Part shown: piece after piece, positions 15,610 through 28,995 of the stretch
How positions within the stretch are numbered: position 1 is the stretch's first letter
How the letters are laid out: each line of letters opens with the position of its first letter
Origin: Nitrosomonadales bacterium
Lineage (GTDB): Bacteria > Pseudomonadota > Gammaproteobacteria > Burkholderiales > Gallionellaceae
Direction: 5' to 3'
NCBI GenBank assembly: GCA_016223025.1
Contig: JACRPU010000037.1
Coordinates: 1 to 64,000 of the forward strand
DNA length: 64,000 bases
The notes under the pieces: model-generated
The model's database searches: none
The model's input: the letters and a program-made list of their open reading frames with translations, nothing else
What the model was told of the DNA's origin: nothing
Made by a program: the position numbers and the translations under genes

Positions 15610-16137
15610 TTGCGCAAGGTCTTATACATTCTTGGCCAACTCTCCGACTCTGATGTCGATTGGCTCGCTCGCACCGGCAAGCGCATCAAGCACGTCAAGG
15701 GCACGCAACTGATCAAGTTCGGGGTCAGCCTCAGCCAGGTCTTCCTGGTGTTGGACGGCGAACTCTCGATTCAAACCAATAAAGGATTCGAGCTGGCCAA
15801 GGTGGGCTCAGGCGAAATCCTCGGTGAAATGTCGCTGGTGGATTCCCGCCCTCCTTCGGCTTCCGTGGTGGTGGTGCAGGACGCTTTCGTGCTCGCGCTG
15901 GACAAGACGGTGATTCAGGAAAAGCTCGACACCGACTCAGGTTTTGCCTCGCGCTTTTACCGCTCAATCGCGATATTCCTGTCCGAGCGGATGAGGAACA
16001 CCGTCGGGCGCATGGGTTATGGCGACGAGGCCGAAGAAGTTTCTGCGGACGAAGACGAACTCGACGCCAACGTGCTGGACAACGTTCATCTCGCGGGCGC
16101 TCGATTCGAGCGCCTGCTGCAGAAATTGATGGGATGA
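15610..16137 (+). CDS. Cyclic-nucleotide-binding domain protein of the export locus
   Basis: 175 aa. The start is TTG 15610, fixed by a strong AGGGAGG 5 bases ahead; the nearby ATG 15590 is out of frame. The N-terminal part MRKVLYILGQLSDSDVDWL is typical of small proteins at the head of NHLM/NHLP-type transport operons. Residues ~35-125 form a CRP-like cNMP-binding barrel with a recognisable phosphate cassette (GEILGEMSLVDSRPPSASVV). There is no helix-turn-helix, so it is a cNMP sensor rather than a CRP transcription factor. The C-terminal ~45 residues are acidic (DEAEEVSADEDELD). It is probably the first gene of the tolC-hlyD-ABC operon. Confidence 0.8.
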   Translation: MRKVLYILGQLSDSDVDWLARTGKRIKHVKGTQLIKFGVSLSQVFLVLDGELSIQTNKGFELAKVGSGEILGEMSLVDSRPPSASVVVVQDAFVLALDKTVIQEKLDTDSGFASRFYRSIAIFLSERMRNTVGRMGYGDEAEEVSADEDELDANVLDNVHLAGARFERLLQKLMG

Positions 16138-16198: not shown

Positions 16199-17794
16199 AT
16201 GGCTTTGTCGGCGAAATTAGTGCGATCCGCTGCAATAGTACTTGGCACAAGCGCGTCGTTGCTGCTCGGCGTATTTTCGCAAAATGCCCAAGCGCAGCGC
16301 ACGCGGGATATGCCGCAAGGTTTGAGCCTGGAAGCGGCGCTATCGGTCGCGCTATCAGGCAATCCCAACGTGCTGCTCTCGCTCACACAGGTCGAGGTGG
16401 CCCAGGGCGTGGCGCAGCAGCAGCATGGGCCGTTTGATCTCGCGCTGAACGCGCAGGGCGGCAGCACGCGCAACATACAGCCCCTGCGCGAGGCCGAGCG
16501 TCTGAACTTCCTGCAGGGCGGATACGACCTGCGCTACCAGATCAGCGATACCACCATTGCGCAAGCAGGGGTCACGCAGTTGTTCATCAACGGGGTGCAG
16601 GCAAACCTGGTAGCCACTTATACGAACAATGCGGACAACACCTTCCCCGCAACCGGAACGCTGCGGCAAGGCAGCGGAACCGTGGCTTTCCAGTTGCGCG
16701 TGCCGATAATGCGCAATGCGGGAGATGTGGCCAGCGCGCCGTTGCGCGCAGCCGAAATCGAATCTTCCGCCACGCGCGGCGAACTCGAATTCACGGTCGC
16801 ACAGGCTCTGTTGAACAGCGCGCTTTCCTACTGGGATTATCTGGGCAAGACGCAGCGTCTGGCAATCAGCCGCGCCAACGAACGTCGCGGCGAAGAGCAA
16901 CTCGATGAGATTCGCAAATTGATTGCTGCGGACGAGTTGCCAGAGGCGGAAGCCAATCTTGCGCAAGCGAGCCTGAATGATCGCCGCTCGGCACGCATCG
17001 CGGCGGAGCAAGCGCTTCTGGAGTCGCGCCGCGCGCTCGGGCGCACGCTCGGGATGAGCGCGCAAGCGACCATGTCCATCGGCGATCTGGTGGACGCGTT
17101 TCCGCCATACGCCAACGTGGCGATCAACACCGTGCTTCGCAAGGAAGAGCTTACCTTGCGCGCACTTGAGTTGCGCAGCGATCTGGCGGCGCTGCGCCAG
17201 CACCGGGAAGCCGCGCAAATTCTCCGCGATGCCGCGCGCAAAAACGAACGCCCGCAGCTCGATCTGGTGCTGGGCGCAACGCAAAACGGCTTGACTGAAG
17301 GCGCCTCGCCGGGCGCGATCGCACCTGCGTTCACCCGGAATTTTGGCCCCGGTTATAGCGCCAACCTGATTTTTCAAATGCCGCTGGGAAACAACACCGC
17401 GCGCGGGCTGTACCGGCAGCAGGCGGCGCAGGCCGACGCACAGCGCATCCGCATCAGCGAGCTGGGCCATTCGATCAGCAACAGCATCGAGATTTCGGCC
17501 TACGCCGTGCAGCGCGCCACGGAACAATTGATTGAAGCGGATGCGGCAGTCAAGACCTATGCCGTGAGCCTGGAGAACGAGCGCACCAAACGGCGCCTCG
17601 GATTGGCGACGCTGATCGACACCCTGAATATTGAAGACCGCTACAACAATGCGCTGCTGGCCGCAGTGCAGGCGCACCAGAATTTTGCCGGCAGCATCGC
17701 GCGGTTCCGGTTCGAGACCGGTACCTTGCTGGCGCGCGAAGGCGACACTTACAGCGCCCGCGTGAGCGAACTGCTCACTCCAGAGGTTCGCTGA
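16199..17794 (+). CDS. TolC-family outer-membrane efflux protein
   Basis: 531 aa with an N-terminal signal peptide (AIVLGTSASLLLGVFSQNAQAQ) and a GGGAG site 8 bases before the ATG. The mature part begins with SLEAALSVALSGNPNV, the usual OEP opening, and contains long alpha-helical heptad segments in two halves (~60-290 and ~300-520). It should form the trimeric channel through the outer membrane for the HlyD/ABC exporter encoded next. 87 bp separate it from hlyD. Confidence 0.85.
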   Translation: MALSAKLVRSAAIVLGTSASLLLGVFSQNAQAQRTRDMPQGLSLEAALSVALSGNPNVLLSLTQVEVAQGVAQQQHGPFDLALNAQGGSTRNIQPLREAERLNFLQGGYDLRYQISDTTIAQAGVTQLFINGVQANLVATYTNNADNTFPATGTLRQGSGTVAFQLRVPIMRNAGDVASAPLRAAEIESSATRGELEFTVAQALLNSALSYWDYLGKTQRLAISRANERRGEEQLDEIRKLIAADELPEAEANLAQASLNDRRSARIAAEQALLESRRALGRTLGMSAQATMSIGDLVDAFPPYANVAINTVLRKEELTLRALELRSDLAALRQHREAAQILRDAARKNERPQLDLVLGATQNGLTEGASPGAIAPAFTRNFGPGYSANLIFQMPLGNNTARGLYRQQAAQADAQRIRISELGHSISNSIEISAYAVQRATEQLIEADAAVKTYAVSLENERTKRRLGLATLIDTLNIEDRYNNALLAAVQAHQNFAGSIARFRFETGTLLAREGDTYSARVSELLTPEVR

Positions 17795-17881
17795 ATTGGA
17801 CGGCACGATTATGGAAACCCCTCATCGCGCATCTTGCGCAAACCTCCGTCACCACTTGGCAATCCATCCGGAGCACACACC

Positions 17882-19156
17882 GTGAGCACATCTGAAATTC
17901 AGACAAAACTGTTCCGAAAAGTCGCTCTGGACCGCCTGTCTTCGCCGGAACAGCTCGATACCATGATCCAGATCGTGACCCTTAAAAGCTGGCTGATGCT
18001 CGCGCCGCTGGTGGCGCTGGTGGCGCTGGCAATACTCTGGGGCATCTTCGGCTCGATACCCTCGAAGGTCACCGGCAAGGCTCTCCTGATTCAAAGCGGG
18101 GGTCTTGCCGACATTACCAGCGGTTCGGCGGGCCGCATCACGTCAATGAAAGTGAAAGTGGGCGATCTGATCGGCGCCGGGCAACTGATTGCAGTTCTGG
18201 CGCAGCCCGATCTCGCGGACAGGATCAAATCCGCCGAGGGCAGGCTCGCCGAATTGCAGCGCCAGGACAACGAATTGCAAGGTCAGATCAGCCGCTCGCA
18301 AACCCTGTCGCGCTCCCTGCTGTTGCAGCAGCGCGCGGCCGTCGAAGGCCAGATAAAGGCGGCGCAAGATCGCGCCCAGGTGCTGCGCGAGCGGGTGGAA
18401 ACCCAACGCCGTCTTGTCGAGCAGGGCTTGATCACCCATCAGACGCTACTCAACTCCCAGAACGAATTGGCGTCATCGCAACTGGAAATTGAAAACGCCA
18501 AATCGCAGCTCCAGCAGGGGTCGTTGCGGGGAGCGGAAGACGACAAGCGCGCATTGCAGGAAATTACCGCCATACGCAACCAGATGAGCGAGACGCGCCG
18601 CACCCTTGACGGACTGCATTCCAGCCTGTCCCAGACCGCGCAGATCAATTCGAGTTATGCCGGGCGAATCGTCGAAATCAAAGCTGGTCCGGGCACCCTG
18701 GTGGCGCAAGGCGCGGCGGTCGTAACGGTGGTGCCCGCGTCCGGCGGCGTTTCCGAAACCGAAGCGGTGATCTATATCCCTGCTGCCGAGGGCAAAAAAA
18801 TCGAAACCGGGATGGAAGCGCAGATCGTACCCACGACGGTGAAGCGCGAGGAGCACGGCTTCATGATCGCCAAGGTCAATTATGTTTCCGAGTATGCGGC
18901 AACGGAGGATTCGATGATGGCGATCCTGCAAAACAGGCAGATCGTGCAGGAATTGTCCGGAGGCAGCGCACCGATCGAGATACGCGCGAAGCTCCTGCCC
19001 GCCAGCACGCCCAGCGGATTCAAATGGTCGAGTAAAGACGGCCCGCCGTTCAAGGTGGGAGCCGGTACGCTGGGAACTGCGGAGATCGTGGTGTTCAGGC
19101 AAGCTCCGATCACGCTGGTGATTCCGTTTCTCAGGAAAAGCCTGGGGGTGAATTGA
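17882..19156 (+). CDS. HlyD-family periplasmic adaptor, NHLM/NHLP type
   Basis: 424 aa. GTG 17882 is chosen: GGAG lies 8 bases upstream and the protein then starts MSTSEIQTKLFRKVALDRLS, followed by SPEQLD, the conserved cytoplasmic stub of adaptors in NHLP bacteriocin systems. One membrane anchor follows (residues ~38-58, WLMLAPLVALVALAILWGIF). The lipoyl/barrel half (TSGSAGRITSMKVKVGDLI) flanks a coiled-coil hairpin (~105-240), and the second half IVEIKAGPGTLVAQGAAV follows. It bridges the ABC transporters to TolC. Confidence 0.88.
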   Translation: MSTSEIQTKLFRKVALDRLSSPEQLDTMIQIVTLKSWLMLAPLVALVALAILWGIFGSIPSKVTGKALLIQSGGLADITSGSAGRITSMKVKVGDLIGAGQLIAVLAQPDLADRIKSAEGRLAELQRQDNELQGQISRSQTLSRSLLLQQRAAVEGQIKAAQDRAQVLRERVETQRRLVEQGLITHQTLLNSQNELASSQLEIENAKSQLQQGSLRGAEDDKRALQEITAIRNQMSETRRTLDGLHSSLSQTAQINSSYAGRIVEIKAGPGTLVAQGAAVVTVVPASGGVSETEAVIYIPAAEGKKIETGMEAQIVPTTVKREEHGFMIAKVNYVSEYAATEDSMMAILQNRQIVQELSGGSAPIEIRAKLLPASTPSGFKWSSKDGPPFKVGAGTLGTAEIVVFRQAPITLVIPFLRKSLGVN

Positions 19157-19355: not shown

Positions 19356-21557
19356 ATGACAAGCCCCGACACCCAATCCGCCCCCGCGACCATGCTGAAG
19401 AATATTCGCGTCAACACACCCGCCATCCTGCAGATGGAGGCTGCGGAATGCGGTGCGGCATCGCTGGCGATAGTGCTGGCTTTTTACCGGCGATGGGTGC
19501 CGCTGGAAGAGCTGCGCGTCGCCTGCGGCGTGTCGCGCGATGGCTCCAAGGCATCGAACGTGTTGCGTGCGGCGCGCACTTACGGCCTGGCGGCCAAGGG
19601 TTACAGGAAGGAGCCCGATGATCTGCGCAACATGAAGCTGCCGATCATCGCCTTCTGGAATTTCAATCACTTTCTGGTGGTCGAGGGCTTTGTCGGGGAC
19701 AAGGTCTATCTGAGCGACCCGGCATCGGGCAAGCGCTGGGTTTCTGCGCAGGAATTCGACCAATCCTTTACCGGCGTGGTACTGAGCGTCGAACCGGGGC
19801 CGGATTTCAGGCCCGGCGGCGAAAGCCCCAGCGTGCTGCGCGCGCTGAAGCGGCGTTTTACAGGCGCGAGCAATGCCATCGCGCTGCTTCTGGTGTGCGG
19901 CCTAGCCCTGGTCATACCGGGCATGGCGGTGCCCGCGTTCGGGCGGGTTTTCGTTGACGAAGTATTGATCGGGCACCATGAGAGCTGGCTGCTGCCGCTG
20001 TTGGTCGGCATGGCCGCGACCTGCTTGCTGCGCGCCGCGCTCGCCTGGACGCAGCAGTATTACCTGCTGCGCGTTGAAACCAAGATGGCCCTGGCGACCT
20101 CGTCCAAGTTCTTCTGGCATGTGCTGCGCCTGCCGATCGAATTCTACACACATCGCTCGCCCGGCGAAATCAGCGGCCGCGTGGCGATCAATGATCTCGT
20201 GGCGCGCATTCTCACCGAGGATCTGACCCACTCCCTGCTGGCGATCCTCACGGCGATTTTCTTTGGCGCCCTCCTGTTGTTCTACGACTGGCGGCTGGCG
20301 CTCATCGCGTTTGTGACCGTCGGGCTGAATCTGGGCGCACTGCAATACGTCGCCAGGAGCAACAGGCAGCTCAACCAGCGCCTTGCCATGGATGGAGGCA
20401 AACTCGGCGGCGTCGCGATGTCGGGCCTGGCGATGATGGAAACCATAAAATCCTCCGGTGGCGAAGCGGGCTTTTTCTCGAAGTGGTCCGGGCACCAATC
20501 CAAATTTCTCAACTCGCAGCAGGAAACGGCGCGCATCGGGTTGAATCTCTCGCTGCTGCCGACGCTGTTGAACGCTTTCAGCAGCACCCTGATTCTGGGC
20601 TTAGGCGCCATGCGGGTGATGGATGGGGCGATGACCATGGGCACGCTGGTGGCATTTCAGAGCCTGGTGGCAAGCTTCATGGCCCCGACCAACCAGTTGA
20701 TGGGCATGTTCTCGAAATTGCAGCAGACGCAGGGCAACATTGACCGGCTCGACGATGTCATGAAGTACCCGCTTGATCCGCTGGTTCGCGAAGACAGCGA
20801 AAAAGCGCGCACCGCGCCGCTGGAAAAGCTCCGCGGCGAGATCGAATTCAGGAACGTCAGTTTTGGTTACAGCCGCGCCGAAAAGCCGTTGCTGGAAAAT
20901 TTCAGCATGAAGATTTATCCCGGGCAACGCGTAGCGCTGGTCGGCCCCTCCGGTTGCGGCAAGTCCACCGTCGCGAAACTCGCGATGGGGCTGTACCGGC
21001 CGTGGGAGGGCGAGATTCTGTTCGACGGCAGGCCGCGCGAGGACTACAGCCGCTACGCGATGATCAACTCCATGGCAATGGTGGATCAGAACATCGCGCT
21101 GTTTACCGGCACGGTGCGCGACAACATCACCATGTGGGACAGCACCGTCGGAGAGGCGGCCTTGATTCGCGCCGCGCAGGACGCCTGCATCCACGAGGTC
21201 ATACTGCAACGGCCGGGCGGCTACGACGCCAGCATCCTGGAGGGCGGCGCCAACTTTTCCGGCGGCCAGAAGCAACGCATTGAAATCGCCCGCGCGCTGG
21301 TCAATGACCCGCGCATCCTGGTGCTGGATGAGGCCACCAGCGCCCTGGATGCGACGACGGAGAAGCTGTTCGATGACAACCTGCGCCGGCGCGGCTGCTC
21401 CTCAATGGTAGTGGCGCACCGCCTTTCCACGATTCGCGATGCCGACGAAATCATCGTGCTGCGCGCGGGCCGCGCCATCCAGCGCGGCACGCACGATGCC
21501 CTGGTACGGGAAGAAGGCGGCCTGTACCACCAGCTCATGTCCACCGAGGCGCACTGA
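19356..21557 (+). CDS. Peptidase C39-containing ABC exporter (NHLP type)
   Basis: 733 aa: an N-terminal C39 bacteriocin-processing peptidase (residues ~18-150), six membrane helices (~165-440) and an ABC ATPase (~495-730). The peptidase triad is present: Cys32 in QMEAAECGAASL, His105 in FNHFLVVE and Asp121 in SDPASG. The ATPase has Walker A VGPSGCGKST, signature FSGGQKQRIEIARAL and Walker B ILVLDEATSALD. It should cleave leaders after Gly-Gly and export the cores. Directly downstream genes encode matching Gly-Gly leader peptides. ATG 19356 lacks a good Shine-Dalgarno site; M at 19392 is an alternative. Its stop overlaps the next ATG. Confidence 0.93.
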   Translation: MTSPDTQSAPATMLKNIRVNTPAILQMEAAECGAASLAIVLAFYRRWVPLEELRVACGVSRDGSKASNVLRAARTYGLAAKGYRKEPDDLRNMKLPIIAFWNFNHFLVVEGFVGDKVYLSDPASGKRWVSAQEFDQSFTGVVLSVEPGPDFRPGGESPSVLRALKRRFTGASNAIALLLVCGLALVIPGMAVPAFGRVFVDEVLIGHHESWLLPLLVGMAATCLLRAALAWTQQYYLLRVETKMALATSSKFFWHVLRLPIEFYTHRSPGEISGRVAINDLVARILTEDLTHSLLAILTAIFFGALLLFYDWRLALIAFVTVGLNLGALQYVARSNRQLNQRLAMDGGKLGGVAMSGLAMMETIKSSGGEAGFFSKWSGHQSKFLNSQQETARIGLNLSLLPTLLNAFSSTLILGLGAMRVMDGAMTMGTLVAFQSLVASFMAPTNQLMGMFSKLQQTQGNIDRLDDVMKYPLDPLVREDSEKARTAPLEKLRGEIEFRNVSFGYSRAEKPLLENFSMKIYPGQRVALVGPSGCGKSTVAKLAMGLYRPWEGEILFDGRPREDYSRYAMINSMAMVDQNIALFTGTVRDNITMWDSTVGEAALIRAAQDACIHEVILQRPGGYDASILEGGANFSGGQKQRIEIARALVNDPRILVLDEATSALDATTEKLFDDNLRRRGCSSMVVAHRLSTIRDADEIIVLRAGRAIQRGTHDALVREEGGLYHQLMSTEAH

Positions 21558-24535
21558 TGCAGGCCTTGCGCACACGGCTGCTGCAGATGGGCGACGCGTA
21601 CATCATCGGCGCGCACGCGCCCCTGCTCCTGCGCGATCCGGAGCGGGCATGGTGGATCGAAGACGGCACGGTGGACATATTCGCCGTCGAGCAGGCCGCG
21701 CCCACCGGCGGCGCCGGGGAGACGGGCGGTATCGGGGCGGATCAATTCGTCCCCGGCCCGCGCGAACATCTCTATCGGGTTGAAAGCGGCCAACTGTTTT
21801 TCGGCATCGCCCATGCCAACCTCGATCCTGGCTGGACGCTGATCGGCTCGGCGACGGCGGGCGCCAAGGTGCGCGAATTCTCCTGGCGCGAGTTGCGCGA
21901 ACTGGCGGCGGATGAACGCCTGCACCGCGGCTTGACGGAACTCATTGACACATGGGTGAGCGCCACGACGCGCGGCGCGGCAAAAGATATTCAGCCCAAG
22001 AACTACGTCCCGCTGAGCCTGGGCCAGGAAACGCCCACGGCGGTTGCGGGCGGGCGCTCTTTTTCCCCGGCGGAGCGTCTGGCGTATATGCGCATGGCCG
22101 AAGGCGAGGCAAGTTTCCTGTCGCGCGCCGCGTTGCGCGTCGGCCCGGCCACACCGCTGCTGCCGCTGCGCGATGATGCGTGGTGCGATGCCGTCCGGGA
22201 TTGCAGTGTCCATGCGCTTGCGCCAGGCGCGGCGCTGCGGGAGGCCGATTTCTGGGACGGGCTGCGCCATTACTACCGGTTGATTGTGTGCTTTTCGCTG
22301 GCAGGTTTTGCCGCGACAGCGAAGCAAGAGTCCGGGCGCATGCGCATGAAATCGGCGCAGGCCGCCGAACAGATGCACAGCGGGCTCGCGAGTTTTGTGC
22401 GCACACTGAAGCCCGATCAGGGTACGCGCTTTGCCGACATCTCTGGCGATCCTCTGCTGGGCGCCTGCCAGTTGATCGGAATGCGCATGGCGACGCGCTT
22501 TGTCGCCCCGCCGCACACCGGTTTGGCCAATGCCGATCCGCTGGAAGCCATTGCCGACGCGGCGCGCGTGCGCTTTCGCCAGGTGGCGCTGCGCGGCGCG
22601 TGGTGGCGGTCCGACGGCGGCGACCTGCTGGCGCGCTTTCAGGAAAACAAACAGCCGCTGGCTTTGTTGCGCGTCCGCGGTTGTTACGAACTGCATGACC
22701 CGGTGGCCATGACAGTACGGGTAGTGGATGAAGCGCTGGCGGGGCAATTGGCGCCGTTCGCCACATCGTTTTTCCGCTCGCTGCCCACGAAGAAACTGCG
22801 CATGCGGGACATCGCGCATTTCATCTACGCCGGCATGGGATCGGACGCAATGTGGATGCTCGGCCTGGGGCTGTCCATCGGCCTGCTGAGCCTGCTCACG
22901 CCCCTGTTGACGGGTTATATCTTCGACATCCTGATTCCCTCCTCGGACCGGGGTCAGGTGGCGCAATTGATGGGCGCGCTTATGGCGGTTGCAATCGCGA
23001 CCACCCTGTTCACTCTGGCGCGCTCGATGGCGGCGCTGCGCCTGGAGACGCGCGCCGATTCCGGCCTGGAGGCCGCTATCTGGGACAGGGCGCTGAATCT
23101 GCCCGCGACCTTCTTCAAGCAATATTCCTCTGGCGACCTGGCCGCGCGCCTGGGCGCGATCAACACCATCCGCTCGGCGATTTCGGGCACCACGCTTGGC
23201 TCCATCCTGACCGGGGTGTTTTCGCTGCTCAACATCGCGCTGCTTTTTTATTACGACACGAAACTCGCAACCCTGGCCGTGATCCTCGTTCTGGGTGCGG
23301 CGCTACTGAGCTTCGCGCTCGGTTTTTTTACCCTGCGCTACCAGCGGCGCATGGTCGAGATATCGGGCACGCTATCGGGATTGGTGCTGGAATATTTGCG
23401 CGGCGCAGCCAAACTGCGCGTAACCGGCTCCGAGGCGCGCGCTTTCGCCAACTGGGCGCGCGAGTTCAGCCGCATGAAGCAGCTCGCCTTTGGCGCGGGC
23501 CATGTAAAAAACATCAACGATGTGTTCTTTTCCGCCTACGGGGTGGTCACGGATATCCTCCTGTTTGGAGCAATCGGCTTTTTTCTGTTCAAGGCTGGCG
23601 GTGCGCCGATCACCGGCCAGGATGCCGTCAGGGCGCTCACGACGGGGCAGTTCATCGCCTTCTATGGCGCGTTTGGCGCGGTGATGGGTGCGGTCACCGG
23701 GCTGAGCCATACCGCGCTCGGCCTGCTCGGCCTTATTCCTGTGTACGAGCGGGCCAAGCCGGTGCTGGAAGCCCTGCCCGAAACCGATGAGGCCAAAGCG
23801 CATCCGGGTGAAATGCAGGGGCAGCTCGATGTGGTGAATGCGGTGTTCCGCTATCGCGCGGACGGCCCCCCGATACTCGATGATGTATCGTTTTCGATCA
23901 GGCCCGGCGGCTTTATCGCGGTGGTGGGCGCATCCGGATCGGGCAAATCGTCCTTGCTGCGCTGTCTGCTCGGCTTCGAAAAACTATCTTCCGGAGGCAT
24001 ATTTTTCGACAACCAGAATCTCGATGACCTGGACTTGCGCGCGGTTCGCCGCCAGATGGGCGTGGTGCTGCAACACAGCCAGTTGATGCCCGGCGACATC
24101 TTCACCAACATCGTCGGCACCAGCTTGTTCAACATCGACGATGCCTGGGAAGCGGCACGGTTTTGCGGTCTGGAAGATGACATCAAGGCCATGCCCATGG
24201 GCATGCATACGATGCTCTCCGAGGACGGCGGCACGCTCTCCGGCGGTCAGCGCCAGCGCATCCTGATCGCGCGCGCCATCGTACACCGACCGCGCATCAT
24301 TTTCTTCGACGAAGCCACCAGCGCACTCGACAACCGCACTCAGGATATGGTCACGCAAAGCCTGAACCAGTTGCGCGCCACGCGCATCGTCATCGCGCAC
24401 CGCCTGTCCACCGTCATCAACGCGGATCGGATCATCGTCATGGACAAGGGCAGGATCGTGCAGGTCGGCAATTACCAGGCACTGATCGGTGTGCCGGGCA
24501 TTTTTCAGGATCTCGCCAGGCGGCAGATGCTGTGA
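21557..24535 (+). CDS. Second NHLP-type ABC exporter with large N-terminal extension
   Basis: 992 aa, starting within the stop of the preceding gene (TGATG). The first ~400 residues are a soluble extension without peptidase motifs; the beginning (LLRDPERAWWIEDGTVDIFA, then VESGQLFFGIAH) recalls a cNMP/cupin-like barrel. Membrane helices follow at ~430-700, then an ATPase with VGASGSGKSS, LSGGQRQRILIARAI and IIFFDEATSALD. In NHLM-type systems this protein pairs with the C39 transporter, probably as a heterodimer. The two half-sites have different signatures, fitting an asymmetric exporter. Confidence 0.9.
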   Translation: MQALRTRLLQMGDAYIIGAHAPLLLRDPERAWWIEDGTVDIFAVEQAAPTGGAGETGGIGADQFVPGPREHLYRVESGQLFFGIAHANLDPGWTLIGSATAGAKVREFSWRELRELAADERLHRGLTELIDTWVSATTRGAAKDIQPKNYVPLSLGQETPTAVAGGRSFSPAERLAYMRMAEGEASFLSRAALRVGPATPLLPLRDDAWCDAVRDCSVHALAPGAALREADFWDGLRHYYRLIVCFSLAGFAATAKQESGRMRMKSAQAAEQMHSGLASFVRTLKPDQGTRFADISGDPLLGACQLIGMRMATRFVAPPHTGLANADPLEAIADAARVRFRQVALRGAWWRSDGGDLLARFQENKQPLALLRVRGCYELHDPVAMTVRVVDEALAGQLAPFATSFFRSLPTKKLRMRDIAHFIYAGMGSDAMWMLGLGLSIGLLSLLTPLLTGYIFDILIPSSDRGQVAQLMGALMAVAIATTLFTLARSMAALRLETRADSGLEAAIWDRALNLPATFFKQYSSGDLAARLGAINTIRSAISGTTLGSILTGVFSLLNIALLFYYDTKLATLAVILVLGAALLSFALGFFTLRYQRRMVEISGTLSGLVLEYLRGAAKLRVTGSEARAFANWAREFSRMKQLAFGAGHVKNINDVFFSAYGVVTDILLFGAIGFFLFKAGGAPITGQDAVRALTTGQFIAFYGAFGAVMGAVTGLSHTALGLLGLIPVYERAKPVLEALPETDEAKAHPGEMQGQLDVVNAVFRYRADGPPILDDVSFSIRPGGFIAVVGASGSGKSSLLRCLLGFEKLSSGGIFFDNQNLDDLDLRAVRRQMGVVLQHSQLMPGDIFTNIVGTSLFNIDDAWEAARFCGLEDDIKAMPMGMHTMLSEDGGTLSGGQRQRILIARAIVHRPRIIFFDEATSALDNRTQDMVTQSLNQLRATRIVIAHRLSTVINADRIIVMDKGRIVQVGNYQALIGVPGIFQDLARRQML

Positions 24536-24635: not shown

Positions 24636-25211
24636 ATGACAAATAATTCGAATAAAGCGCCCGATGATGCGCTGATAGCGGCGGTGCTCGGGGGGGATAC
24701 GGAGAGCTTCGCGTTGCTGGTGACACGCCACCAGCAGCGCGTCATGCGTTTCATCCTCCGGTACGAATTCAACGCCGATGACGCCGAGGATCTCGCGCAG
24801 GAAACCTTTCTGCAAGCCTTTCGCGCCCTGCCCGGCTTCAATTGCCAGTCCCGTTTCTCCACGTGGCTGACGGGCATAGCCTTCAACCTGCTCAAGAACC
24901 ATATCGGCCGCACCCCGACCAAGTGTCATGCCCACCTGGATCACGACGAACAGCCGGAGGATGCGTGCGGCGTTGCCGCCGCCGACCCCGCACGGGAGTA
25001 TGCGCACGGCCAACTGCTTCGCGCCATGGAGCGGGCGGTCGCGGCGCTGCCGGAAGAGATGCGGGATGCAATCATCCTGGTCGCCGCCGAAGGGCTGAGC
25101 TACGGCGAAGCGGCTGCAATGCTTGACGTGCCGGTCGGCACGCTCAAGAGCAGGTTATGCCGGGCGCGCATGCAGCTTGCCGGCGCATTGCAGGAATACC
25201 GGGGGTTTTGA
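24636..25211 (+). CDS. ECF-type RNA polymerase sigma factor
   Basis: A 191-aa sigma-70-family protein with regions 2 and 4 only. Region 2 is at ~22-95 (FNADDAEDLAQETFLQAFRA for core binding, then SRFSTWLTGIAFNLLKNHI). Region 4 is at ~130-185 (LPEEMRDAIILVAAEGLSYG, then AAAMLDVPVGTLKSRLCRAR). ATG 24636 is preceded by GGGGAAGCAGG. It lies between the exporters and the precursor array; the putative anti-sigma partner closes the array at 28435. It probably directs transcription of the precursor genes, but I could not match the repeated upstream element to a standard ECF promoter. Confidence 0.9.
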   Translation: MTNNSNKAPDDALIAAVLGGDTESFALLVTRHQQRVMRFILRYEFNADDAEDLAQETFLQAFRALPGFNCQSRFSTWLTGIAFNLLKNHIGRTPTKCHAHLDHDEQPEDACGVAAADPAREYAHGQLLRAMERAVAALPEEMRDAIILVAAEGLSYGEAAAMLDVPVGTLKSRLCRARMQLAGALQEYRGF

Positions 25212-25274
25212 AGCTTTGTTGTGCGAGGGTGGAACAAATTGGCGGCAATTGTTACTCATACATGAGAAGCGTTT

Positions 25275-25338
25275 TTCACCTCAACGGCGCGGGTGGGATT
25301 TTCTTAACAATGCGCCGCTTAAAAAGAAAGGAACCACC
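25275..25338 (+). promoter_or_regulatory. Conserved precursor upstream element, copy 1
   Basis: TTCACCTCAACGGCGCGGGT, GGGATTTTCTTAACAATGCG and CCGCTTAAAAAGAAAGGAAC follow in order, then CACC and the ATG. This is one of six copies, all ending exactly at a precursor start. This copy has GCTTAAAAAG where copies 2, 3, 4 and 6 have TTATAAAT. It includes the Shine-Dalgarno AAAGGA. Confidence 0.75.
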
Positions 25339-25551
25339 ATGAACCAGGAACAAGGCAAGGAAATAAACCAGGTCAATGCGCCAGTTAGTGATGCGGCAGA
25401 AGTCGCGGCCACCGGCGGTGAGTTGGCAGAGCAGGATTTGGATGCGGTGGCGGGCGGGCTCGCAAAAACAATGCCTAAGCGCTTCATTCTTCATACCGGC
25501 GACGAGGATGAGACAGACGATCTGGAAATCCAGCGCCTGAGTAGGCTCTGA
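25339..25551 (+). CDS. RiPP-like precursor peptide 1, Gly-Gly leader
   Basis: 70 aa. The leader MNQEQGKEINQVNAPVSDAA ends with ELAEQDLDAVAGG (residues 28-40), the Nif11/NHLP-type double-glycine motif read by C39 peptidases. The predicted core is 30 residues, starting LAKTMPKRFILHTGDEDETD and ending RLSRL; it is acidic in the middle and has no cysteine. The start has AAAGGA 8 bases upstream. The leader is almost identical to those of precursors 3 and 5. Processing and export by the 19356/21557 transporters is inferred from the cleavage motif and proximity. Confidence 0.85.
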   Translation: MNQEQGKEINQVNAPVSDAAEVAATGGELAEQDLDAVAGGLAKTMPKRFILHTGDEDETDDLEIQRLSRL

Positions 25552-25670: not shown

Positions 25671-25751
25671 CAGTTTCCGATTCTCACCCCCTGCGGCGCG
25701 GGTGGGATTTTTTAGCAATGAGCCGTTTATAAATTAAAGAAAGGAACCACC
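25671..25751 (+). promoter_or_regulatory. Conserved precursor upstream element, copy 2
   Basis: 81 bp identical, base for base, to copy 4 (27498-27578). It contains CACCCCCTGCGGCGCGGGTG then GGATTTTTTAGCAATGAG and TTTATAAATTA before AAAGGA. The CTGC-GGC-GCGG part can form a short hairpin followed by six T, which looks like a weak terminator or attenuator. TTTATAAAT could be a -10 box. Confidence 0.75.
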
Positions 25752-25946
25752 ATGAACCAAGAAAAAGGCAAGGAAATAAACCAGGTCAATGCGCCAGTTA
25801 GTGATGCGGCAGAAGTCGCGGGCACCGGTGAATTGTCGGAGCGGGATCTCACTGAAATCTCCGGTGGTCTGATTTTCCCCCAACCAACTACGAAAATTAA
25901 AGGCAAGAAATATACGAACGTAAGTGGCTGCTCAATCATCATTTAA
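25752..25946 (+). CDS. RiPP-like precursor peptide 2, Gly-Gly leader
   Basis: 64 aa. Leader MNQEKGKEINQVNAPVSDAA, then GTGELSERDLTEISGG; cleavage after Gly-Gly would leave a 25-residue core: LIFPQPTTKIKGKKYTNVSG then CSIII. The core has five lysines, one Tyr, one Cys and a hydrophobic end. It is the precursor nearest upstream of the radical SAM gene and is followed by its own terminator. Lys, Tyr and Asn-Val are plausible targets for radical SAM chemistry, but this is speculation. Confidence 0.85.
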   Translation: MNQEKGKEINQVNAPVSDAAEVAGTGELSERDLTEISGGLIFPQPTTKIKGKKYTNVSGCSIII

Positions 25947-26067: not shown

Positions 26068-27201
26068 ATGGGCCTTCGAGATGCTGGTGTGTCGAACTGG
26101 GCAACCTCCGTGACAAAACAAACGCCCTTCCTGTCCGAGGCAGCCCTGTCGGATGCGCTGTATCTAAAAGTGCTGAATCTGATTCTGCTGCCGACCGAGC
26201 AATGCAATTTCCGCTGCACCTATTGCTACGAGGACTTCGAGGCCGGCAAGATGCGCCCCGAGCTCGTGCATAGCATCAAAATGCTGGTGGACCGGCGCAT
26301 CGCCGATTTGCAGGCCATCAGTCTTTCTTGGTTCGGCGGCGAACCCTTGGTGGCCAAGGACATCATCTTCGACATTGCCGAGCATGTGAACCTGCGGTGT
26401 CGGGAGACAGGCGTGCAAAACCTAGGCGGCCATTTGACCACGAACGGCTACCTGCTTGATATCGGCACTGTAGAGCGTCTTTGCGCGGTCGAGCAACGCT
26501 CGGCGCAGATATCGCTCGACGGCTTGGGCGCGGCTCATGACCGCAGCCGTCCGCTGGCATCGGGCAAAGGAAGTTTCGGGCGCATCTGGGACAACCTCGT
26601 GGCCATACACAATAGCGAGCATGACTTTCATGTTGGCCTGCGCGTTCATGTGGGCGCAGCCGATCTTGCGGAAACGGAGAACTTGTGCCGGGAGATCAAC
26701 CGCCAGTTCGGTGGCGATCCACGCTTCACATTCCATTTTCGGCTTGTCTCTAATTGGGGAGGTGCCAACAAGGACAGCATCCACCCCATGGACGAGGAGC
26801 TCGGACGGGCTACCGTGAAACAGCTTGAGCGACTGCTGACCGACATACCCAATAACTGCGGGCAAGAAGATGATGTCCAGTACATCTGCTACGCAGCCAA
26901 GCCGAATACCTGGCTGATCCGGGCTGATGGCCGGGTGGGAAGATGTACGGTCGCCCTGAATGATCCGCGCAATACCGTAGGCAATTTGGATGAGCGCGGT
27001 TTTTTGCGGGTTGATAAGGAAATGCTCCGGCCCTGGATGGCGGGATTCAAAGATATTGATTCCCAGTTATTGTCTTGCCCTTACACCGGTGTTAGAAAAA
27101 TCGCGCTGTCGGAAGTGGCCAAGCCAATTGCCATCATCAAATCGAACCACGAGGCGTTGGTGTATCCTATGAATCAAACACCTTCGGCTTCAGGTGCCTA
27201 A
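26068..27201 (+). CDS. Radical SAM peptide maturase with reduced SPASM domain
   Basis: 377 aa. The [4Fe-4S]/SAM motif CNFRCTYCYED (Cys46, Cys50, Cys53) is followed by SWFGGEPL and the TIM-barrel strands LTTNGYLL and AQISLDGLG. The C-terminus has the opening signature of a SPASM domain, C-x13-G-x4-C (Cys274, Gly288, Cys293), then only one more cysteine in CPYTG (Cys337) instead of the usual four or five. Auxiliary cluster binding is thus probably altered. It is expected to modify one or more precursor cores, for instance by cross-linking or epimerisation. There is no obvious Shine-Dalgarno site before ATG 26068; GTG 26110 is an alternative. Confidence 0.88.
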   Translation: MGLRDAGVSNWATSVTKQTPFLSEAALSDALYLKVLNLILLPTEQCNFRCTYCYEDFEAGKMRPELVHSIKMLVDRRIADLQAISLSWFGGEPLVAKDIIFDIAEHVNLRCRETGVQNLGGHLTTNGYLLDIGTVERLCAVEQRSAQISLDGLGAAHDRSRPLASGKGSFGRIWDNLVAIHNSEHDFHVGLRVHVGAADLAETENLCREINRQFGGDPRFTFHFRLVSNWGGANKDSIHPMDEELGRATVKQLERLLTDIPNNCGQEDDVQYICYAAKPNTWLIRADGRVGRCTVALNDPRNTVGNLDERGFLRVDKEMLRPWMAGFKDIDSQLLSCPYTGVRKIALSEVAKPIAIIKSNHEALVYPMNQTPSASGA

Positions 27202-27240
27202 TCCGGGAGCCAACATTATATGATAGCTTAAATATGATTT

Positions 27241-27312
27241 TCACCTCCTGCGACGCGGGTGGGGATTTTTTAGCAATGAGCCGTTTATAAATAAATTATG
27301 AAAGGAACCACC
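27241..27312 (+). promoter_or_regulatory. Conserved precursor upstream element, copy 3
   Basis: TCACCTCCTGCGACGCGGGT then GGGGATTTTTTAGCAATGAG and CCGTTTATAAATAAATTATG lead into AAAGGA-ACCACC-ATG. The stem CTCCTGCG/CGCGGGTGG keeps pairing through G-T wobbles, although bases differ from copy 2. Confidence 0.75.
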
Positions 27313-27477
27313 ATGAGCCAAGAACAAGGCAAGGAAATAAACCAGGCCAATGCGCCGGTTAGTGATGCGGCAGAAGTCACGGCCACCGGTGAATTGGCAG
27401 AGCAGGATTTGGATGCGGTGGCGGGCGGGCTTGCAAAATTCCGCCCCAGCAAGTGCTTGAAAGATTCCCTAAATTAA
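27313..27477 (+). CDS. RiPP-like precursor peptide 3, Gly-Gly leader
   Basis: 54 aa. Leader MSQEQGKEINQANAPVSDAA and ELAEQDLDAVAGG, nearly identical to precursor 1. The predicted core has only 15 residues, LAKFRPSKCLKDSLN, with four positively charged residues and a single Cys. It shares its L-A-K start with the precursor 1 core. AAAGGA lies 8 bases before the ATG. It is the first precursor after the radical SAM gene, 111 bp downstream of its stop. Confidence 0.8.
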   Translation: MSQEQGKEINQANAPVSDAAEVTATGELAEQDLDAVAGGLAKFRPSKCLKDSLN

Positions 27478-27497: not shown

Positions 27498-27578
27498 CAG
27501 TTTCCGATTCTCACCCCCTGCGGCGCGGGTGGGATTTTTTAGCAATGAGCCGTTTATAAATTAAAGAAAGGAACCACC
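27498..27578 (+). promoter_or_regulatory. Conserved precursor upstream element, copy 4
   Basis: Identical over 81 bp to copy 2 (25671-25751), although the gene behind it (precursor 4) has the most divergent leader. This argues for recent duplication or gene conversion of the upstream element as a unit. Confidence 0.75.
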
Positions 27579-27779
27579 ATGAACCAAGATCAGGGCAAGA
27601 ACAAGGCAAATTCGCAACAGCAACAATCACCGACAAAGGGAAAGCAGGAGACCGAATCCACCGAACTGAGCGATGTAAGTTTGGACAAGATTTCGGCGGG
27701 TATCAAGATGGTAACAAAGCCCCGTGCCACGGGCACGGAGACGGAAGACGAGGTTTACATTGGTAACAAGCGGGCGTAA
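27579..27779 (+). CDS. RiPP-like precursor peptide 4, divergent leader
   Basis: 66 aa. The leader begins MNQDQGKNKANSQQQQSPTK and ends STELSDVSLDKISAG, so the double glycine is replaced by Ala-Gly. The -4 and -7 positions (Ile and Leu) and the acidic helix are kept. The predicted core is 25 residues: IKMVTKPRATGTETEDEVYI then GNKRA. It is the most diverged of the six genes in the coding part, yet has the same upstream element as precursor 2. Ala-Gly is accepted by some C39 peptidases, so cleavage remains plausible. Confidence 0.75.
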   Translation: MNQDQGKNKANSQQQQSPTKGKQETESTELSDVSLDKISAGIKMVTKPRATGTETEDEVYIGNKRA

Positions 27780-27811
27780 AGAATTTAAAGGGGGTCAGGT
27801 TGAATTGTTCT

Positions 27812-27878
27812 TTCTCACCTCAACGGCACGGGTGGGATTTTCTTAGACAATGCGCAGCTTAAAAAGAAAGGAACTACC
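27812..27878 (+). promoter_or_regulatory. Conserved precursor upstream element, copy 5
   Basis: TTCTCACCTCAACGGCACGG then GTGGGATTTTCTTAGACAAT and GCGCAGCTTAAAAAGAAAGG before AACTACC-ATG. It is closest to copy 1 (both have CTCAACGG and CTTAAAAAG) and, like it, lacks TATAAA and a good hairpin. Confidence 0.75.
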
Positions 27879-28058
27879 ATGAGCCAAGAACAAGGCAAGG
27901 AAATAAACAAGGAAATAAACCGGGTCAAAGCGCCGGTTAGTGATGCGGCAGAAGTCGCGGCCACCGGCGGTGAGTTGGCAGAGCAGGATTTGGATGCGGT
28001 GGCGGGCGGAATAATTGCCAAGATTCTGCCTATGAAGAAGATCAAAGGCATGCTGTAA
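27879..28058 (+). CDS. RiPP-like precursor peptide 5, Gly-Gly leader
   Basis: 59 aa. The leader MSQEQGKEINKEINRVKAPV has a short internal duplication (KEIN-KEIN) and ends ELAEQDLDAVAGG. The predicted core is 15 residues, IIAKILPMKKIKGML: strongly basic and amphipathic, without Cys or acidic residues, which would suit a membrane-active peptide. The KIKG block is shared with the core of precursor 2. The same AAAGGA ribosome site is used. Confidence 0.8.
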   Translation: MSQEQGKEINKEINRVKAPVSDAAEVAATGGELAEQDLDAVAGGIIAKILPMKKIKGML

Positions 28059-28094: not shown

Positions 28095-28165
28095 TTCTCA
28101 CCTCCCGCGGCGCGGGTGGGATTTTTTAACAATGCGCCGCTTATAAATTATAGAAAGGAACCACC
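28095..28165 (+). promoter_or_regulatory. Conserved precursor upstream element, copy 6
   Basis: TTCTCACCTCCCGCGGCGCG then GGTGGGATTTTTTAACAATG and CGCCGCTTATAAATTATAGA before AAGGAACCACC-ATG. Here CCCGC-GGC-GCGGG forms the best hairpin of the six, directly before GTGGGA and a T6 run. Confidence 0.75.
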
Positions 28166-28360
28166 ATGAACCAAGAACAAGGCAAGGAGATAAAAAAAGT
28201 CAATACGCCAATCAGTGATGCGGCAGAAGCCACGGCCACCAGCGGTGAGTTGGCAGAACATGATTTGGATCAGGTCGCGGGGGCGGGGCTCGCTTCGATC
28301 CCTGTGGGCAACTTCGGCGGCGAGGAATGGGATTTTAAACCGAAAACAACCATTCGATAA
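28166..28360 (+). CDS. RiPP-like precursor peptide 6, Gly-Ala-Gly site
   Basis: 64 aa. Leader MNQEQGKEIKKVNTPISDAA, then ELAEHDLDQVAGAG: the cleavage motif reads Gly-Ala-Gly rather than Gly-Gly. The predicted core of about 23 residues, LASIPVGNFGGEEWDFKPKT then TIR, is the only one with Trp and has an aromatic/acidic character (F, W, F). It ends 74 bp before the anti-sigma/leader fusion, probably in the same transcript. Confidence 0.8.
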   Translation: MNQEQGKEIKKVNTPISDAAEATATSGELAEHDLDQVAGAGLASIPVGNFGGEEWDFKPKTTIR

Positions 28361-28434
28361 GAGTGGGCGCACCCTTATGGATCAATGGGGGCAGACTCCA
28401 TTGATTCTCTGCGGCCGGCTAATTGGAGGATGAA

Positions 28435-28995
28435 TTGAACGCGGATGAGACTGGGTTGGAAGGTGTATGCGGGCAGATGTTGCCGCGTATGAGCCGCGCC
28501 CTGGACGGTGATCTTGACGGCGATGAAATGGCTGAACTGTCGGCCCATTTGGCGTGCTGCGCGCCTTGCCGCACGCGTGCGACCGGGATAAACGCCGCAG
28601 ATAATCTGTTCCGGGAGTTGGACGAGAAACATTCCGTGCCGCTGGTGCGCGAAGCCGCTTTCGCCCGGCAGGTGATGAAACGGGTACGCCTGGAGGCCGC
28701 CTCCGCCGGAGGCGTTCGGGAATTCATCCGGCTGGTGGTGCAGACCCCGGATTTGCGGGATCAGCTCCGCCCGTCCGCCAGCACGGATGCGTTTGTCGAA
28801 TCGTTCGTCAGCCTGGCATGGCAGCGCGGCTACCGGTTCGGCAGCGGTGAAGTCGTCAGCCTGCTGGCGGCCCGCCGCGCCGCGAACGACGATTTGAGCG
28901 ACGAGCAACTCGACGCCGTAGTTGGCGGCGCGAGCCAAGCTGACGCAGGGTTGCATGCACTCATCGACGAATTGCTGCCGAACTGGTTCAAATAG
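28435..28995 (+). CDS. Anti-sigma zinc finger fused to a Nif11-type leader domain
   Basis: 186 aa. The start is TTG 28435, set by GGAGG five bases ahead; ATG 28430 stops after two codons. Residues ~14-50 match the zf-HC2/ZAS anti-sigma fold: MSRALDGDLDGDEMAELSAH followed by His38-x3-Cys42-x2-Cys45. Residues ~94-160 resemble a Nif11 leader domain (REFIRLVVQTPDLRDQL, AFVESFVSLAWQRGYRF), ending LSDEQLDAVVGG with Gly164-Gly165. A 21-residue tail follows (ASQADAGLHALIDELLPNWF-K). It has no membrane helix, so it would be a soluble anti-sigma that is also a potential C39 substrate. It likely controls the sigma factor at 24636. Confidence 0.8.
   Translation: MNADETGLEGVCGQMLPRMSRALDGDLDGDEMAELSAHLACCAPCRTRATGINAADNLFRELDEKHSVPLVREAAFARQVMKRVRLEAASAGGVREFIRLVVQTPDLRDQLRPSASTDAFVESFVSLAWQRGYRFGSGEVVSLLAARRAANDDLSDEQLDAVVGGASQADAGLHALIDELLPNWFK

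Follow-up and report, generated by a model that had tools for sequence, protein, structure and literature searches.

How cells balance the synthesis of leader peptides against export is, to our knowledge, not understood in general. The question arises at a locus of a Nitrosomonadales bacterium in which an ECF sigma factor, its putative inhibitor, and a peptide exporter are encoded together. We analysed a stretch of 64,000 nucleotides (contig JACRPU010000037.1, positions 1 to 64,000 of the forward strand), referred to here as the window. The locus lies on the plus strand throughout, and its last gene encodes a fusion of an anti-sigma domain and a peptide leader domain. Apart from the small precursors, its genes are as follows.

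15610..16137 (+), cyclic-nucleotide-binding domain protein at the head of the export operon (Pfam cNMP_binding, 3e-11)
16199..17794 (+), TolC-type outer membrane factor (Pfam OEP, 1.9e-20)
17834..19156 (+), NHLM HlyD-type adaptor (TIGR03794, 340.7 bits; cut-off 156.2)
19356..21557 (+), NHLM C39 peptidase/ABC exporter, ABC1 (TIGR03796, 1042 bits; cut-off 853)
21557..24535 (+), second NHLM ABC subunit without peptidase, ABC2 (TIGR03797, 866 bits; cut-off 709)
24636..25211 (+), ECF sigma factor (Sigma70_r2, 5e-16; Sigma70_r4_2, 6e-15)
26068..27201 (+), radical SAM RiPP-maturase-like protein (Radical_SAM, 7e-14; TIGR04463, 7.5e-34, below its cut-off)
28435..28995 (+), anti-sigma/Nif11 leader fusion protein, 186 aa

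Homologues of the cyclic-nucleotide-binding protein adjoin other NHLM loci. ABC1 contains the catalytic residues Cys32, His105, and Asp121, and the ECF sigma gene has two candidate starts, GTG 24612 and ATG 24636. The fusion gene is located 3.2 kb downstream of the sigma gene on the same strand, and 6.9 kb separate it from the end of the C39 exporter gene. This distance agrees with an earlier note on the same DNA, which had placed an exporter about 7 kb upstream.

The fusion ORF starts with TTG at 28435, with GGAGG (28425-28429) five bases upstream, and its stop codon occupies 28993-28995. The encoded protein consists of a zinc anti-sigma domain, a Nif11 leader domain, the sequence LSDEQLDAVVGG (residues 154-165), and a 21-residue tail, in this order.

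28468..28572 (+), zinc anti-sigma core, residues 12-46 (C12, H38, C42, C45), with zf-HC2 at residues 13-46
28714..28851 (+), Nif11 domain, residues 94-139 (PF07862 and 9zn4 profile match)
28882..28923 (+), C39-recognition leader end, residues 150-163 (L-12 = L154, L-7 = L159, V-4 = V162)
28924..28929 (+), Gly164-Gly165, predicted C39 cleavage pair
28930..28992 (+), 21-residue tail ASQADAGLHALIDELLPNWFK

His38, Cys42, and Cys45, which the earlier note had read as H-x3-C-x2-C in a zf-HC2 context, are present, and Pfam zf-HC2 (PF13490) matches the protein with 29.8 bits (E 6.2e-7), above its cut-off of 22.2. Cys12 is the fourth likely zinc ligand, giving the set C-x25-H-x3-C-x2-C, and all four ligands are invariant in an alignment of the five fusions described below. 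The Nif11-like domain, LSDEQLDAVVGG, and the 21-residue tail had likewise been located and counted correctly; PF07862 scores 21.4 bits (E 3.1e-4), just under its cut-off of 23.8, and relatives of the fusion pass it. The leader end fits the pattern of Leu at -12, Leu at -7, and a hydrophobic residue at -4 followed by Gly-Gly (L154, L159, V162, and G164-G165). As an estimate of chance, the strict leader-end motif occurred in 94 of 100,000 shuffles of these proteins. The tail contains a single Ser, no Cys, and no Thr, and the protein has no evident membrane segment.

The division into two domains was also observed in structure-level searches. A profile of the five fusions, compared with the PDB, matched RsiW at positions 18-92 (1.1e-7) and the Nif11 leader structure 9zn4 at positions 98-172 (3.4e-10), bearing out the two-domain split proposed earlier. 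Foldseek gave its highest probabilities to RsiW (0.94) and the Nif11 leader structure (0.91), with weak E-values. The three best structural matches of the AlphaFold model were RsiW (Z 7.0; 3.2 Å over 59), MucA (6.7), and RslA (6.3), and ChrR was also among the PDB profile and model matches. The model is mediocre (pLDDT 64.9, with the leader end and tail mostly under 50), and the comparison covers mainly residues 1-69. With middling Z values and this pLDDT, the predicted anti-sigma fold leans mainly on the sequence match. Judged from its sequence, the protein is an anti-sigma factor joined to a Nif11 leader.

This combination is rare. In searches covering 300 genomes from the order and 398 from the phylum, a full-length fusion was detected only in the window's own genome (1 of the 300 for its order). 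A survey of 80 NHLP exporter loci yielded another in a Methylococcaceae MAG (L059), where genes for HlyD, the C39 exporter, the second ABC subunit, and the ECF sigma factor are followed directly by the fusion gene; the C39 exporter gene is two genes upstream of the sigma gene. The fusions of the window and L059 are 60% identical and their sigma factors 64%, with LSDEQLDAVVGG identical and the tail partly kept as ..AD.GLHA.ID.L.PN.FK. At L059:6920-6990, no ATG, GTG, or TTG precedes the first zinc Cys of the fusion, and AAGGA lies upstream; the gene may start at ATT, or the MAG may contain an error. When three such sigma factors were combined into a profile and another family of the order was searched with it, G1134 (L135) emerged; a profile of three fusions then led to G1441 and G1443, which belong to the same genus (g691) as G1134. 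The full-length fusions are those of the window, L059, L135, L159, and L161, and the g691 fusions are 31-34% identical to that of the window.

The same fusion, which the earlier note had wished to see sought elsewhere, is therefore found in four further full-length relatives, whose genes all follow an ECF sigma gene directly. The contig that bears the fusion also encodes an NHLM C39 exporter with a score exceeding the family cut-off, at a distance of ~21 kb in G1134, ~30 kb in G1441, and ~14 kb in G1443. The C39 Cys, His, and Asp are present in the exporters of the window, L059, G1134, G1033, and G1443. The L135 locus also encodes a LanM-like protein, whose name was assigned from sequence and setting, as well as Nif11-type precursors that end in VAGG. 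The L059 fusion passes zf-HC2 (32.8 bits) and PF07862 (32.0), and the L159 fusion passes PF07862 (25.5 bits). With four further full-length relatives, the joining of anti-sigma and Nif11 is, on this comparison, no chance fusion.

Two of these regulators, at L059:6951-7484 and L135:9220-9801, score above the NCBIfam cut-off of the Nif11 precursor model TIGR03798 (39.1 and 32.6 bits, respectively, vs 32.3). Long NHLP-type proteins at L108:15963-16613 (+) and L081:7512-8216 (-) apparently carry two tandem leader-like copies before one Gly-Gly. Several other weak matches were rejected: L002, L004, and L005 were Nif11-type, L003/L026 is an ordinary unfused sigma/zf-HC2 pair, L110 and L111 are Nif11 proteins without the zinc domain, and L006-L008 looked unrelated. 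The fusions of the window and L135 and the L075 anti-sigma discussed below had no match in the plasmid records, and no relative was found in viral contigs. In a tree of the NHLP-linked sigma factors, these were clustered (2 changes vs 6.3 in shuffles), but the tree did not show a single clade for them.

Across the five fusions, 41 positions are invariant. The densest run in the protein is formed by residues 150-163, where 10 of 14 columns are invariant (hypergeometric p 5e-5); by comparison, the zinc core has 14 of 35, the tail 2 of 21, and the cleavage pair none. Structural and mutational work on LahT and PCAT1 has revealed that C39 domains grip leaders by residues -12, -7, and -4 (PMC6363468, PMC6959990), and L-12, L-7, and V-4 are kept in all five fusions. 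The cleavage pair is Gly-Gly in the window and L059 and Ala-Ala in L135, L159, and L161, which represent one genus. The pairs named for C39 are GG, GA, and GS (PMC6363468, PMC6959990). The conserved element across the fusions is recognition, not the cut.

We scanned the ORFs of the available loci for the register L-12, [DE]-10, L-7, and [VILM]-4. In this register, the pair was GG in 123 cases, GA in 8, AA in 5, and AG in 4. Each of the five AA cases is accompanied by an ECF sigma gene; they comprise the three g691 fusions, a Trinickia anti-sigma with zf-HC2 and without Nif11 (L075), and a short ORF in the NHLP locus of G1033.

L136:9264-9473 (-), 70-aa ORF directly downstream of an ECF sigma gene, ending in RMLNDADLEWLAAAGPGFPPPQDPH, without zinc Cys

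NCBIfam weakly suggests an anti-sigma for this ORF (E 0.007), which is possibly a minimal anti-sigma with a leader end. The L075 and L136 sigma partners, both without Nif11, end in the same register as the fusions. A leader profile blind to the cleavage pair gave the five fusions 17.9-20.1 bits, like true precursors, and AA was absent from its ~150 other matches. Because the same profile gave the L075 and G1033 (L136) endings only 3.9 and 2.5 bits, we regard these as suggestive, not secure. Fisher tests of the association of AA with sigma gave 8e-8, and 1.3e-5 when collapsed to lineages, with L075 and G1033 counted as real and kinship ignored. The Ala-Ala evidence with good profile scores comes from one genus. 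At four other loci with an ECF sigma gene near NHLP genes (L033, L051, L052, and L083), the scan showed no partner with an Ala-Ala leader end.

We propose that the anti-sigma factor docks on the exporter's C39 domain, as a substrate in the window and as a pseudo-substrate in the relatives, and that sigma activity would report exporter occupancy. For this reading we consider the chances evenly balanced; the rarity of the fusion and the confinement of the well-scoring Ala-Ala endings to one genus speak against it. A cytosolic zinc anti-sigma would inhibit the ECF sigma factor of the same locus, and a copy of a RiPP precursor leader at its C-terminus would serve as its sensor. The end of this leader, with L-12, L-7, and V-4, would dock in the groove of the exporter's C39 peptidase domain, at the site used by precursors. 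An exporter with free sites would capture the anti-sigma, leaving sigma free to transcribe cluster genes, and piled-up precursors would displace the anti-sigma from C39, so that sigma is silenced. Competing with precursors for C39 sites, the anti-sigma would therefore sense free export capacity. Sigma binding, C39 docking, competition with precursors, the sign of control, and the genes read by sigma are what we infer here, and the proposed sign would give stable feedback. In the window species, capture would probably also clip the 21-residue tail, whereas the Ala-Ala relatives would dock without clipping.

The earlier note had suggested that sigma is released by either engagement of the transporter or cleavage. 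Engagement fits better. Cleavage does not hold as a general principle, because three relatives of one genus with Ala-Ala keep the recognition helix. In the window/L059 lineage, tail clipping may add a second effect, and one could go further and take it as the signal itself. Removal of the tail by C39 would then inactivate or destabilise the anti-sigma, for example via its new C-terminus, so that a working exporter turns sigma on in the Gly-Gly lineage and something else serves the Ala-Ala lineage. In line with this, the window and L059 proteins share Gly-Gly and many tail residues, but the recognition helix of the Ala-Ala relatives is left unexplained and the tail is not conserved across all five fusions (2 of 21 columns invariant). 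We consider this explanation unlikely, while granting it some weight.

It is improbable that C39 cleavage or export of the anti-sigma itself frees sigma, like FlgM export in flagella. The idea of an anti-sigma coupled to export capacity is common to the fusion and FlgM with flagellar type III export, and the earlier note had drawn this comparison in casting the anti-sigma as an exporter substrate. Part of that proposal is well founded: Gly-Gly and the recognition residues are present in the window and L059, and the exporters have their catalytic residues. What is not supported is export of the anti-sigma in the manner of FlgM. FlgM is itself exported, whereas a C39 exporter keeps the leader in the cell and exports just the part after Gly-Gly (PMC6363468, PMC6959990). 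Because the predicted sigma-binding zinc domain precedes Gly-Gly, on the side that C39 exporters keep inside, only the 21-residue tail could leave, as judged from domain order and precedent. In three relatives, moreover, Ala-Ala takes the place of a known site (GG, GA, or GS).

Could that tail be the point of the protein? The fusion would then be in effect a precursor, its exported product being the 21-residue tail (a peptide signal or RiPP) and its zinc domain making synthesis self-regulating. Gly-Gly, the tail partly kept between the window and L059, and the TIGR03798 scores above cut-off in L059 and L135 are compatible with this, but three relatives have Ala-Ala and a different tail, and the window tail contains neither Cys nor Thr and only one Ser. 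We find it very unlikely.

The window encodes six small precursors, of which numbers 1, 2, 3, and 5 were recognised from their sequence and the repeated cassette.

25339..25551 (+), small precursor 1, containing GELAEQDLDAVAGG
25752..25946 (+), small precursor 2, containing GELSERDLTEISGG
27313..27477 (+), small precursor 3, containing GELAEQDLDAVAGG
27579..27779 (+), small precursor 4, containing TELSDVSLDKISAG (Ala-Gly site)
27879..28058 (+), small precursor 5, containing GELAEQDLDAVAGG
28166..28360 (+), small precursor 6, containing GELAEHDLDQVAGAG (Gly-Ala site)

These genes sit in duplicated cassettes, with the radical SAM gene among them, and most of the precursors carry GELAEQDLDAVAGG, or a slightly altered form of it, as their short leader end. 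Pfam gave no Nif11 match in the four precursors tested. Two precursors show variant cleavage pairs, Ala-Gly (27579-27779) and Gly-Ala (28166-28360), and the others have Gly-Gly. Given the AG pair in one window precursor, a lone Ala at -2 may be tolerable.

A GC-rich hairpin followed by a T run (CACCTC..GCGGCGCGGGTGGGATTTTTT) is located ~30-40 bases before the start codon of each of the six precursor genes.

25272-25306, 25681-25715, 27238-27272, 27508-27542, 27811-27845, and 28095-28129, hairpin copies in the window

The region contains 16 terminator-like sites vs 6.4 expected, both strands counted, and the precursor hairpin looks like a terminator or attenuator carried within the duplicated cassette. 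A search for a two-block promoter shared by the cluster genes found none in their upstream regions. That the window sigma factor controls the precursors is hence a proposal, which counts against the docking model.

The precursors also bear on whether the leader half might be read by a maturation enzyme instead of the exporter, the anti-sigma then sensing the maturase. Leaders do also direct modification enzymes (PMC6363468). However, the maturation enzymes differ between loci, being radical SAM in the window and LanM-like in L135, so the likeliest shared partner of the fusions is the exporter. In addition, the window precursors tested have no Nif11 match yet share the C39-proximal motif, and we give a maturase sensor little credence. 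Hard to believe, too, is a recombination by-product, with a precursor gene and an anti-sigma gene joined and the Nif11 part meaningless for regulation: the fusion gene does end a duplicated precursor array, but conservation across the five fusions peaks at the leader end, and the fusion has also been maintained in L059 and, in another genus, in three species.

The fusion resembles ZAS/zf-HC2 proteins (RsiW, RslA, ChrR, and RsrA) in its zinc motif C-x25-H-x3-C-x2-C, in matching RsiW, RslA, and ChrR by PDB profile and model, and in the linked ECF sigma gene, but its C-terminal part, a Nif11 leader with a C39 recognition site, replaces their sensor or membrane parts. With Nif11 precursors (PF07862/TIGR03798) and double-glycine substrates it shares a predicted helical Nif11 domain, L-12/L-7/V-4, Gly-Gly in the window, and a C39 exporter in the locus; unlike them, it carries the leader at the C-terminus of a regulator, has a cargo of ~20 residues, and shows Ala-Ala in three relatives. 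The nearest regulatory parallel that we found is MibX/MibW of the lantibiotic microbisporicin, likewise a cluster-encoded ECF sigma/anti-sigma pair, which controls a ribosomal peptide cluster (PMC4973701). MibW holds its sigma factor at the membrane and has been proposed to sense the exported product or envelope stress (PMC4973701), whereas the fusion carries a leader mimic and no evident membrane segment. Among the open-access papers searched, we found none containing both 'Nif11' and 'anti-sigma'; subscription journals lie largely outside that set, and priority is not proved. The word sigma is absent from the paper defining NHLP/Nif11 systems.

For the matching of leader-peptide synthesis to export, the sequence points to a direct sensor, in that the cluster's sigma inhibitor carries the exporter's own recognition tag. 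A whole class of anti-sigma factors might gauge C39 occupancy through a precursor leader that acts as a pseudo-substrate and in some lineages carries Ala-Ala, with sigma output as a measure of free export capacity; we hold this generalisation tentatively, with somewhat more doubt than belief. For annotation, regulators that pass the NCBIfam Nif11 precursor cut-off could be misnamed as natural-product precursors. If true, the docking model would provide a testable mechanism of cluster control and a new input for anti-sigma factors, and it would offer a handle to switch on silent NHLP/Nif11 clusters.
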